In this document: in pieces, positions 23,675 to 27,613 of the stretch
Position numbering within the stretch: the stretch's first letter is position 1
How the letters are laid out: every line of letters starts with the position of its first letter
NCBI GenBank assembly: GCA_902778855.1
Contig: CACYZM010000019.1
Coordinates: 1 to 43,507 of the forward strand
From: an uncultured Bacteroidia bacterium
Lineage (GTDB): Bacteria; Bacteroidota; Bacteroidia; Bacteroidales; UBA932
DNA length: 43,507 bases
Reading direction: 5' to 3'
Notes under the pieces: generated by a model
The model's database searches: none
Told to the model about the DNA's origin: nothing
What the model saw: the letters and a program-made list of their open reading frames with translations, nothing else
Made by a program: the position numbers and the translations under genes

Positions 23675-24616
23675 ATGAAGAAACATACCTTTGGAATCCT
23701 GTGTCTCACGGTCCTGGCGGCCTGCGCCTGCGGCAAAGAGTTTGAACTGGAGGTGACCTCCGATCCGAAACTCTTCCTCCAATGCTGCCCCGGCCCCGGC
23801 GATACGACCATCATTCAGCTCAACCGGACCTTCGCGGTGGGCAGAACCGCGGATAACGTGCTGCTCCTGGAAGACGCGGACATCGATTTCGTGGTCAACG
23901 GAACGCCCTACTATGTGGAGCGTGCGGTGGATACGGCGGGCGTGATCCCGCCCGGCTGCTGGTTCGTGGTTGCTTCGCTCCAAGCGGGCGATGAGGTGGC
24001 TGTCGAAGCCCGTGCCGATGGGTTCAATCCCATTTCAGCCCGGGTGACACTGCCTTCTCCCGCGCCCGATTTTACCTGGAAATTCAACCGGGATTCCGTC
24101 CGTATCACCTTCCGCGACGATTCGGCCACCGAAGACTGGTACGGCCTGGCCGTCTATTGCGAGCGGACCCTCATCAATTTGGATACCGGGCAGGAAAGGG
24201 TCCTGAAGCAGAATCTCCTCCCGCTGAACGGCTCTTCCGACAGCTGGTGGTATTCGAAGGTCCGCAATTATGTCGACATCCCGTTCAACGGGTGGTCGTT
24301 CGGGTACGCCTGGAGCATGGTCCGGGTCTGGCCCGATACGGGTTTTTCGGGGCAGGAGACGACCCTGTTCATGCCCACGCGGGACATCGTTTCCTATGTC
24401 GGGAATTACGAGCAGCACGACCGCTTCAAGGTACGGCTCTACCGGGTTTCGAACGAATTTTTCCGCTACGGCGTCGCCCTGGAGCATATGCGCAGCAACA
24501 CCCTGGCGGAAGCCGGTCTGGCTCCGGCCGCCTATGCCTATTCCAATGTCCACGGCGGCGTAGGCGTCCTCGCCGCGTGGAACGTGTGTGAGACCGGCTG
24601 GCTCACATTGCCGTAG
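23675..24616 (+). CDS. DUF4249 family lipoprotein
   Basis: The 313-residue protein has a lipoprotein signal ending LAAC (Cys17; a second Cys follows at 19). The N-terminal part VVNGTPYYVERA...VVASLQAGDEVAVEARADGFNPISARVTLP and the overall length match DUF4249 (PF14054 type), lipoproteins commonly encoded after TonB-dependent receptors in Bacteroidota. It is likely on the outer membrane and may assist the receptor in binding cargo. The gene starts 3 bases after the receptor stop. It converges with the - strand Na/Pi gene, with only 11 bases between the two stop codons and no obvious terminator. Confidence 0.82.
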   Translation: MKKHTFGILCLTVLAACACGKEFELEVTSDPKLFLQCCPGPGDTTIIQLNRTFAVGRTADNVLLLEDADIDFVVNGTPYYVERAVDTAGVIPPGCWFVVASLQAGDEVAVEARADGFNPISARVTLPSPAPDFTWKFNRDSVRITFRDDSATEDWYGLAVYCERTLINLDTGQERVLKQNLLPLNGSSDSWWYSKVRNYVDIPFNGWSFGYAWSMVRVWPDTGFSGQETTLFMPTRDIVSYVGNYEQHDRFKVRLYRVSNEFFRYGVALEHMRSNTLAEAGLAPAAYAYSNVHGGVGVLAAWNVCETGWLTLP

Positions 24617-24627
24617 GTGTGTAAGGA

Positions 24628-26589
24628 TTACTCGTGGAACGTGTAGCCGTACTCGCCTTTGGTCACGAAGTTCTCGGCGTAGGGGCCGATCTTCCGGCGG
24701 ATGCGGGCGATGGTGGCATCGACGGTGCGGGTGGTTGCCAGGGCGTCGTCGGGCCAGAAGGCCTGCAGCAGTTCCTCGTGTGAGAAGACCTTTTCGCGGT
24801 TCTCCATCAGGAGTTTCAGCACTTCGTATTCGTTCTTGCCCAGGGAGACGGGTTCGCCGTCGACGCGGACCTCTTTGCCGTCGGTATCGATCTCGATGCC
24901 GCGGAAGCGGATGCCGTTGCGGGCGGCGCCCAGGCGGGCCTCGACCACGTTGATCACATAGTCGCCCGTCTTCTCGCATTCGGCGATCAGGTCGGTGAAC
25001 ACCGTACCGTTGTCGTAGCCATAGACCCGTTTGTCGAGGTTTTCGACGTTCTGCTGCTTGAGTTTGTTGCGGCAGATGTTGATGCGCGATTCGATGTCTT
25101 CCGACAGGGCGATGTCGTAGCCCTCCCGGTCACCGGTCAGCAGTTCGTTCATCCGGGCGAGCGATTCGTCGAGCAGCGAGAACATTTCCTCGACGCCGGC
25201 TTCCTGTTCCGCGATGAAAACGATCTTGTTTTCGCGCTTGCGCTTCAGGATGCGGGCGAGGTTGTAGCAGCCGTCGCCCACGGATTCCAGTTCGCCGATC
25301 TGGCGCAGCATGCCGCGGATGGTCTCCTTGGTGTCGTCGGACAGGTGTGCGTCGCCCACCTGGCCGAGGTAGCGGCCGATCTCGTTCTCCATCCGGTCGC
25401 TGATGCCCTCGTATTTCTCGATGCGTTCGAAGAGTTTGGCGAAAGCCTGGTCGTCCTGCGTGGTGTAGAGTTCCCGCACCAGCTCGAACATGCGCTGCAT
25501 CCGCTTGCCGAAGTCCTCGATCTCCTTCTGCGCCTGCAGGACGGAGATTTCCGGCGTCTTCATCAGACCGCCGCGGATATATTTGAGGCGGAACTCGTCT
25601 TCCTCCTCGGTCTTCTTCGGCTTGATGATGCGGCACACCAGTTTCTCCATCTGCGGGATGAATCCGATGAGCAGGGCCGTGTTGATAATGTTGAAGCCGG
25701 TGTGGAAGGTGGCCAGCGCAAAGGTCAGGCGGACCGGATCCTGGACTTCCGCCGTGGTGTCGATGCCCACGATGTGGCAGACGAGCCGGACGAACGGGAA
25801 GAAGAAGATGAGCATCCACAAGACGCCGAACACGTTGAACAGCAGGTGCGCCATGGCTGCGCGCCGGGCCTGGGTGTTGGCGCTCATCGCGGCCAGGTTG
25901 GCCGTGAGCGTGGTGCCGATGTTTTCACCCATCACCAGGGCGATGCCCTGGAAGATGGAGATGGCGCCGGTGGAGCAGAGGACCATGGTGATGGCCATCA
26001 GGGCGGCGGAACTCTGGACAATGGCCGTCAGGACCGTACCGATCAGCAGGAACAGCAGGACCGTCCAGTAGTTCGTCGGGAAACTGTCGAAGAAGGCGAC
26101 GACGGCCGGCCGGTTGGCCAGGTCAAGTTCGACGCCCGTCTGGCGCAGCATACCCAGGGCGAAGAGCAGGAAGCTCAGACCGAAGAGGAAATCGCCCACA
26201 TACCGGTGCTTGCCGAGCTGGATCAGGATGATGCCGACCAGGAAGACGGGCCAGACCATGTTGGCGATGTTGAAGGAGAAACCGGCCGACATGATCCACG
26301 CGCTGAGCGTGGTACCGATGTTGGCGCCCATGATGATCGAAATGGCCTGGCTCAGCGTCAGCAGCGCGGCATTGACGAACGAGACCGTCATGACGGTGGT
26401 CGCAGCGGACGACTGGACGGCGACGGTGACCAGGGCGCCGGTGGCGACGCCGGAGAAGCGGTTGGTGGTCATGGTGCCGAGCAGGTGCCGGAGCTGCGGA
26501 CCTGCCATTTTCTGCAGGGCCTCGCTCATGACTTTCATGCCGTAGATCAGCAGGGCGATCGAGCCCAGGAGTTTCAAAGCGATCAACAT
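24628..26589 (-). CDS. Na/Pi cotransporter with PhoU-like region fused to a PhoB/OmpR-type DNA-binding domain
   Basis: The 653-residue protein has three parts. Residues 1-320 are a Na/Pi cotransporter (NptA/PF02690 type) with both inverted QSS repeats (QSSAATT at 59-65, QSSAAL at 192-197) and GANIGTTL/GENIGTTL. Residues about 345-550 are a helical PhoU-like cytoplasmic region. Residues about 558-653 (coded by 24631-24918) are a complete winged helix of the OmpR/PhoB class: VDGEPVSLGKNEYEVLKLL, the VFSHEELLQAFWP helix, the recognition helix RTVDATIARIRRKIG, and the wing ending GEYGYTFHE. Ordinary family members stop after PhoU. The sequence is continuous, with no frameshift. It could be a membrane-tethered phosphate-responsive regulator; that function is inference. 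It follows the CPBP protease gene by 3 bases. Confidence 0.9.
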   Translation of the reverse strand: MLIALKLLGSIALLIYGMKVMSEALQKMAGPQLRHLLGTMTTNRFSGVATGALVTVAVQSSAATTVMTVSFVNAALLTLSQAISIIMGANIGTTLSAWIMSAGFSFNIANMVWPVFLVGIILIQLGKHRYVGDFLFGLSFLLFALGMLRQTGVELDLANRPAVVAFFDSFPTNYWTVLLFLLIGTVLTAIVQSSAALMAITMVLCSTGAISIFQGIALVMGENIGTTLTANLAAMSANTQARRAAMAHLLFNVFGVLWMLIFFFPFVRLVCHIVGIDTTAEVQDPVRLTFALATFHTGFNIINTALLIGFIPQMEKLVCRIIKPKKTEEEDEFRLKYIRGGLMKTPEISVLQAQKEIEDFGKRMQRMFELVRELYTTQDDQAFAKLFERIEKYEGISDRMENEIGRYLGQVGDAHLSDDTKETIRGMLRQIGELESVGDGCYNLARILKRKRENKIVFIAEQEAGVEEMFSLLDESLARMNELLTGDREGYDIALSEDIESRINICRNKLKQQNVENLDKRVYGYDNGTVFTDLIAECEKTGDYVINVVEARLGAARNGIRFRGIEIDTDGKEVRVDGEPVSLGKNEYEVLKLLMENREKVFSHEELLQAFWPDDALATTRTVDATIARIRRKIGPYAENFVTKGEYGYTFHE

Positions 26590-26592
26590 GGA

Positions 26593-27423
26593 TTATGGGG
26601 TTTTTCGAGCGTTTTTCAGGTGGATGCGCCACAGGTACCAGACCGAGAGGCCCAGCCCCAGGATGACGGTGATGATGGAGGCTTCGGCGCCGAACGCGCC
26701 GCCGGTGAGGCAGTCGGGACCGTTGACGGTCGCCTGGAGGAGGGATTTCCCGGCGTTGCCGCCGGAAACCTGGAAGCCGAAGACGTTGCCCTGGACGAAA
26801 TTCCACGCCCAGTGGATGCCGATGGGAAGCCAGAGCGTCCCGGAATACTTGTAGGCGGCGCCGAGCAGCAGGCCGGCTTCGATGGCGATGGCCAGCGACG
26901 ACCACCACGTGGCGCCGGGCTGGCCGTAATGCATGGCGCCGAAAAGCAGGGCCGACACGGTCAGGGCGGCGACAAAGCCCCATTTTTCGTCGATCCAGCG
27001 GAAGAGCACGCCCCGGAAGAGGATCTCTTCGCCGACGCCTACATACAGGAAAAGGAAAAAGGCCGAGATGATGGCGAGCGGCCGGTCGGTGCCGGCGCCG
27101 GTGATGCGGTAGAGGCCGAAGGCCATCATCACCAGCACGACGGCGGCCATAAAGCCCGCGCCGACGGCCAGGCCTTTGGCGGTGTCGCCAACGAGTTTTG
27201 CCCGGGGGATGTCTCTCGCGGGGTGTTTTTCAAACCACTTGACGAAGACTGCGTAGAGGGCGATCATCGCGGCCGAGACGGCGATGGCAATGATCCAGTT
27301 GACCCAGTCGATGGCGGAGATGTCGCCTGCCATCTGGGCGCCGGCGTACATCAGCAGCGCGAGTACGAAGCTGGCGATCAGCAACAGTACCCATTTCCAG
27401 ACTGGCATCGACTTGATGGACAT
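26593..27423 (-). CDS. CPBP family intramembrane glutamic endopeptidase
   Basis: The 276-residue polytopic membrane protein has the CPBP/Rce1-like motifs: EEILFRGVLFR (Glu132, Glu133, Arg137), AMHYG (His165) and HWAWNFVQG (His204, Asn208). These form the active site of intramembrane metal-independent glutamate proteases such as Rce1, and of bacterial homologues that process peptides or regulate membrane proteins. At least six helices are expected. It is the middle gene of a three-gene - strand operon, 10 bases after the DUF6440 gene and 3 bases before the Na/Pi-regulator fusion. The natural substrate is unknown. Confidence 0.9.
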   Translation of the reverse strand: MSIKSMPVWKWVLLLIASFVLALLMYAGAQMAGDISAIDWVNWIIAIAVSAAMIALYAVFVKWFEKHPARDIPRAKLVGDTAKGLAVGAGFMAAVVLVMMAFGLYRITGAGTDRPLAIISAFFLFLYVGVGEEILFRGVLFRWIDEKWGFVAALTVSALLFGAMHYGQPGATWWSSLAIAIEAGLLLGAAYKYSGTLWLPIGIHWAWNFVQGNVFGFQVSGGNAGKSLLQATVNGPDCLTGGAFGAEASIITVILGLGLSVWYLWRIHLKNARKTP

Positions 27424-27433
27424 AGGGGAGGGG

Positions 27434-27613
27434 TCAGCGGGTGACGATAACGTTTCCTTTGGCGTCGAGCAGCGGCGTCAGGCCGCCCGCGCCGCCGCCG
27501 GCGTTGACGAACAAGTAATTGACTCCCGTTTCGTTGTCGATGATGACACAGGCGGTGGTGAGCATGCCCACCCCGTTCTTTTCGTCGATGGTAAATCGTT
27601 TCTCTCTTGCCAT
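27434..27613 (-). CDS. DUF6440 family small protein
   Basis: This 59-residue protein reads MAREKRFTID at its start, with NETGVNYLFVNAGGGAGGLT in the middle and LLDAKGNVIVTR at its end. The pattern of an enzyme-like strand, then ETGVNYLF, then GGLTPLLD, is that of DUF6440, a small family without a known role. It is the first gene of the operon with the CPBP protease and the Na/Pi-regulator fusion. The ATG lies 6 bases after a perfect TATCTTTG box, so the transcript may be nearly leaderless. Confidence 0.82.
   Translation of the reverse strand: MAREKRFTIDEKNGVGMLTTACVIIDNETGVNYLFVNAGGGAGGLTPLLDAKGNVIVTR

Follow-up and report, generated by a model that had tools for sequence, protein, structure and literature searches.

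The window analysed here, a stretch of DNA of 43,507 nucleotides, contains a gene (P0001; positions 24628–26589, minus strand) in which a Na/Pi transporter, a PhoU domain, and a PhoB-type winged helix are joined in one protein of 653 amino acids. We estimate at about two in three the probability that proteins of this type, which occur in a group of gut bacteria, constitute a phosphate circuit in one polypeptide, in which the transporter would import phosphate, PhoU would provide the input, and the winged helix would act on a box at its own promoter; the copy in the window would be a derived member of this family.

The frame was uninterrupted over its whole length, as the sequence-only reading had claimed; its strand was not given there. 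Searches against Pfam yielded Na_Pi_cotrans in two stretches (8.4e-56) and PhoU at residues 359–447 (3.5e-07), both above the curated cut-offs, as well as Trans_reg_C (PF00486) at residues 578–651 (1.5e-17, 63.8 bits vs. a gathering cut-off of 26.2). The transporter core (residues 1–325, positions 25615–26589, minus strand) matched the NCBIfam model TIGR00704 with 219.6 bits at a cut-off of 210.1. Both Na_Pi_cotrans repeats carried a QSS motif, at residues 59–61 (26407–26415, minus strand) and 192–194 (26008–26016, minus strand), as in NptA-type cotransporters. In an alignment of 48 rows, Q59, S60, S61, S193, and S194 were invariant and Q192 was nearly invariant. The PhoU-like helical domain, supported by PF01895, the structure 2i0m, and the helices of the model, occupied residues 346–553 (24931–25554, minus strand). 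It was followed by the PhoB/OmpR-type winged helix at residues 559–653 (24631–24915, minus strand), in which alignment to PhoB located the recognition-helix stretch RTVDATIARIRRKI at residues 621–634 (24688–24729, minus strand).

Sequence matches to solved structures comprised SLC34 transporters and PhoB/OmpR-type domains. An AlphaFold2 model built from 48 rows had a mean pLDDT of 81.8 and a pTM of 0.50, at which the orientation of the domains is unreliable. Residues 559–651 of this model formed the PhoB effector fold. Foldseek ranked the PhoB structures 1gxq and 1gxp first for the winged helix (TMt 0.81–0.84) and revealed PhoU 2i0m for the helical part (TMt 0.82, E 1.5e-3). The transporter core with both QSS repeats, the PhoU-like region, and the full C-terminal winged helix proposed from the sequence alone were all borne out by these searches; the winged-helix fold, on which that proposal depended, was present in the model and closest to PhoB. 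Among response-regulator models, NF053854 (Bacteroidota PhoB) was the top one for the C-terminal part, with 96.6 bits vs. its cut-off of 270, and the match was confined to the effector part (model positions 130–224). A receiver domain was absent from the fused protein according to Pfam, and the protein lies outside the PhoB response regulators as delimited by NF053854. The winged helix is, by the Pfam matches, covalently joined to a membrane protein. The loop past the last membrane helix (residues 322–345) contains seven K/R residues, and the C-terminal half of the protein is presumably cytoplasmic, in keeping with this loop and with the PhoU fold. An assembly join as the source of the fusion was rejected, since frames with these three parts were found in many different assemblies; the comparison included 45 distinct fused genes.

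Upstream box and its association with the winged helix

An 11-bp tandem repeat, GTTAARATTNT-GTTACAAT, was found upstream of many fused genes. In the clean set, from which 32 rows were excluded (no stop, runs of N, unrecognised N-terminus, short upstream, or duplicates), this box with a -7 promoter element 34–36 nt downstream preceded 23 of the 45 fused genes and none of the 53 unfused orthologues. It represents a candidate for the conserved operator that the sequence-only reading had proposed to seek near homologues, co-conserved with the PhoB-like domain. Dinucleotide shuffles of the fused upstreams carried the box and the -7 element in 1 case out of 900. When the distance was left unlimited, an exact TAnnTTTG was present downstream of the box in 19 of 23 rows, and its spacing was 34–36 nt in every case.

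Among fused rows with a PhoB-domain score of at least 105, the box was present in 23 of 25, and below 105 in none of 20; both this cut and the final definition of the box were chosen after the data were seen. The two exceptions, L016 and L084, lack the box despite a PhoB-like domain. When the rows were divided by the recognition-helix string, the box was present in 19 of 21 with at most two changes and in 4 of 24 otherwise. An HMM built from standalone PhoB domains gave a median of 120.2 for 22 rows with the box vs. 93.4 for 23 rows without it, the rows being related to each other. Independent pairs on the tree gave five results for the association, none against, and two without difference (p = 0.0625, the lowest value attainable with five informative pairs). 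When the rows were clustered at 90% core identity, the box was found in 9 of 28 clusters. An earlier association test with other criteria, in which eight loci truncated within fused genes had been counted as unfused, was not significant (median p 0.5); the criteria of the clean set use the HMM score in place of the helix string and accept a box with up to six mismatches together with the -7 element.

A genome-wide scan with the pattern RTTAARATWNWGTTACAAW, allowing up to one mismatch, covered 23 genomes (14 fused and 9 non-fused). The exact box occurred once per genome in eight of the 14 fused genomes (G004, G053, G054, G069, G087, G104, G171, and G189), in all eight directly upstream of the fused gene; the nine non-fused genomes had no exact match. 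The fused gene of G141 has a weaker box. Within the one-mismatch limit, five one-mismatch hits were obtained vs. four for the reversed control pattern. A wider regulon was considered and rejected; at two mismatches the matches were about as frequent as those of the reversed control.

Further box-like sites were observed. Among the one-mismatch hits, a conserved near-box, GTTAAGATTWWTTTACAAT, lies between asd and a TonB-type gene in L195, L196, L198, and L199 (G141, G161, G171, and G104); it was set aside as a target because it occurs in G161 as well, a genome in which the search revealed no Trans_reg_C domain. An identical two-mismatch box, ATTAAGGTATTGTTGCAAA, is located at G004:C4:208168 and G054:C2:181495, in both genomes approximately 3.5 kb from the unfused paralogue. 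Upstream of the fused genes of L006 and L022, the first half-site, GTTAAAACA, resembles that of the box and the second half is changed; their proteins have altered recognition helices, and these loci are a candidate for retargeting.

Distribution of the fusion and the window copy

A scan of GTDB contigs was performed, of which the best 80 of 562 loci were kept. The one-frame fusion was present in 38 of 110 loci compared (L001–L024, L060, L067, L071–L075, L077, and L079–L084), a set that includes loci with standalone PhoB only as well as partial loci. In the genus of the window, 7 of 40 genomes carry the fusion; G004, G053, and G054 additionally carry an unfused paralogue that shares approximately 75% identity with the window protein. 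Among 199 genomes sampled from the family, the fusion was also present in the genera g31 (8 genomes) and g38 (1 genome). Across 394 genomes sampled from the phylum, the threshold of E ≤ 1e-100 was passed by 46 hits, 45 of them with no winged-helix match; with at most three candidates scored per genome, the sole hit reaching into the winged helix was the window's own. The fusion is rare.

The fused state changed 17 times on one transporter tree and 16 times on another. On the domain-only tree, the fused domains need two changes relative to standalone PhoB, and a single origin of the fused domains was obtained in 4% of bootstrap trees. We read these trees as pointing to one or two gains and many losses of the fusion; transfer between lineages may also have occurred. 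The domain is absent from L025, a member of the clade of the window copy.

The domain of the window copy had a PhoB score of 101.2. Its recognition helix is RTVDATIARIRRKI, that of most box-bearing relatives is RTVDVNITRIRKKI, and it has four differences from their commonest form. No box was found upstream of the window's fused gene; the best box-like sites in the window had five mismatches and were located elsewhere, and the genome contained no box at up to one mismatch. The changed recognition helix, the missing box, and the position close behind same-strand genes make a DNA-binding role of this copy doubtful. The ratio of divergence in the DNA-binding domain (DBD) to that in the core, calculated to the high-scoring rows, was 2.19 for the window copy, 1.83–3.07 for the low-scoring rows, and 0.78–1.91 for the high-scoring rows (0.8–1.4 in most of them). 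We relied on this ratio, by which the domain of the window copy is fast-evolving, because the pairwise dN/dS values of the window domain were inconsistent and dS was saturated: with L015, L060, and L011 they were 0.43–0.46 (0.16–0.22 for the core), and with other pairs, at saturated dS, 0.10–0.26. The regulatory role of the window copy has probably been lost or retargeted, and in our judgement loss is about twice as probable as retargeting.

For the window protein and the other box-less members, we give even chances to the winged helix being a passenger that does not bind DNA and is structural or in the course of being lost. The low scores of box-less fused rows against PhoB, their DBD/core ratios, the repeated changes of the fused state on the trees, and the domain-less L025 in the window's clade all speak for it. 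However, four close box-less pairs had DBD dN/dS values of 0.08–0.17, well under 1, which suggests that the domain serves some purpose even where the box is missing, and an altered helix could read a different operator. Box-bearing close pairs among those listed had values of 0.00–0.16. A passenger would also leave the 23 box-bearing rows unexplained; for the family, the autoregulating circuit remains our preferred reading.

Regulators and neighbouring genes

A survey of regulators of the OmpR/PhoB type covered 16 fused genomes (G000, G004, G011, G023, G053, G054, G055, G069, G087, G104, G141, G171, G175, G189, G216, and G231) with a completeness of 76–100%. In 15 of them no second winged helix of this type (Trans_reg_C) was found; the exception, G004, retains a second PhoB-like regulator. 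In the genome of the window (G000), the fused domain is the only Trans_reg_C match, and two receiver-domain matches lie in other frames. A 1236-aa frame with a weak HisKA match is located near a 407-aa receiver frame at G000:C33:11603-16206, and long frames with a weak HisKA match recur across the genus. Other HisKA proteins are kept in several fused genomes. Standalone Trans_reg_C domains were detected in 24 of 60 non-fused genomes (g1, 10 of 33; g31, 0 of 10; g38, 14 of 17). Many relatives have neither the fusion nor PhoB, which indicates that the regulator is dispensable.

In seven genus members (G005, G012, G014, G017, G020, G046, and G045, in the last of which contig ends interrupt the cluster), two related transporters, approximately 42% identical, are arranged divergently to a phoB-phoR pair. 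In L093, L094, L095, and L114, transporter pairs diverge from phoB and from a phoR that is short (268 aa in L114), has a single hydrophobic stretch near its N-terminus, and lacks an evident periplasmic sensor. The exact repeat GTTA-N7-GTTA was present upstream of standalone phoB in 9 of 23 cases, compared to 18 of 2300 shuffles. All nine come from genus g38, and only imperfect repeats were seen in the seven split clusters of g1. The same exact repeat preceded 13 of 25 high-scoring fused genes, none of 20 low-scoring ones, and none of 53 unfused genes.

These data bear on two related possibilities, namely that the fused protein represses its own gene or that the box belongs to another regulator and accompanies the intact domain. 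Both together appear improbable. The box precedes the promoter elements at constant spacing, as is usual for activator sites, and another regulator is disfavoured by the same repeat upstream of phoB in sister genomes as well as by the survey result for 15 of the 16 fused genomes. Activation of the transporter gene by its own attached domain is accordingly the variant we retain as the most likely.

The fused gene of the window is preceded, at a distance of 3 nt, by a gene for a CPBP/Rce1-like membrane protease (26593–27423, minus strand; Pfam) and, further upstream, by a 59-aa frame (27434–27613, minus strand), possibly the first gene of the run. All three share a strand and possibly constitute an operon. 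A DUF4249 gene (23675–24616, plus strand) converges on the fused gene; in L015, of the same clade as the window copy, a DUF4249 relative with 24% identity (L015:7944-9059, minus strand) has the same placement. Cleavage of the winged helix from the transporter, after which it would act as a soluble regulator of the same box, is suggested by the protease gene directly upstream but is less probable still, given that no CPBP gene was found beside the transporter at the other loci of L001–L110 (some with short flanks) and that in the AlphaFold2 model only about five residues separate the last PhoU helix from the first strand of the domain.

Proposed circuit and known systems

In the proposed circuit, the Na/Pi symporter part would import phosphate, and the cytoplasmic PhoU domain, as the putative input, would report the status of phosphate or of transport. 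The winged helix is a relative of Bacteroidota PhoB; it is predicted to bind the tandem 11-bp box directly upstream of the promoter of its own gene and, acting from the membrane without cleavage, would most likely activate the transporter gene at phosphate shortage. In the simplest model, PhoU would hold back the attached domain during phosphate flow and release it at scarcity, and more transporter would be made. The control by PhoR-PhoB would in this way be collapsed into a single autoregulating transporter. Regulation by the attached domain is supported for the family by the comparative data; DNA binding and phosphate sensing by the fused proteins are putative. The suggestion that one protein both imports phosphate and regulates genes holds up best for the family, where the candidate operator is conserved with the attached domain, and is weakest for the window protein itself, with no box, a changed recognition helix, and other genes close in front of it. 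As for gene regulation from the membrane, the transporter's own promoter was the only target found.

We lean, somewhat beyond even odds, towards a history in which a secondary transporter captured the DNA-binding domain of its own regulator, shed the kinase and the receiver, and acted from the membrane on a single promoter; the stepwise loss of the operator, the recognition helix, and then the domain would represent this circuit being dismantled in sister species. How a transporter signals phosphate to the Pho system is a long-standing question. If the circuit is true, symporter, PhoU, and DNA binding would be linked with one predicted promoter as the read-out, and the signal would be traceable within a single protein. 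A two-component pathway would have shrunk to a single gene, and related living species would represent its forms with the box, without the box, and without the domain.

ToxR- and CadC-type regulators have an N-terminal winged helix, one membrane span, and a periplasmic sensor. The sequence-only reading had likened the fused protein to them, which did not hold: its winged helix is C-terminal, after a polytopic symporter, and its likely input is the transporter with PhoU, not a periplasmic domain, which places it outside this type. What they have in common is a DNA-binding domain in a membrane protein, and the available portion of PMC10269533 names no transporter fusion among transmembrane regulators.

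With the NptA-type Na/Pi cotransporters (TIGR00704; S. aureus NptA, PMC13170248, as far as its accessible text goes), the fused protein shares the core with QSS repeats and the C-terminal PhoU; NptA-type proteins end after PhoU, whereas the fused protein continues into the winged helix. According to the same part of that source, S. aureus expresses nptA more strongly at intermediate phosphate when the PhoU domain of NptA is deleted, an effect interpreted by the authors as a contribution to the activation of PhoPR. With PhoB of the PhoR-PhoB system (NF053854; B. fragilis PhoB, available sections of PMC3547664), it has the DNA-binding domain in common, and PhoB genes of sister genomes have an upstream 11-bp tandem repeat of the same type as the fused-gene box. 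Unlike PhoB, the fused protein has no receiver, is joined to a transporter, and has no accompanying phoB found in its genome. The same sections describe binding of B. fragilis PhoB to the pstC promoter and list a putative Na+-dependent phosphate transporter in a table of altered genes (PMC3547664). A search of the open-access literature found no account of a fusion between a transporter and its regulator's DNA-binding domain. The CbrA/CrbS transceptors, in the portions of the sources at hand, likewise unite transport and signalling output in a single polypeptide; they signal through a histidine kinase, whereas the output of the fused protein would be the DNA-binding domain itself.
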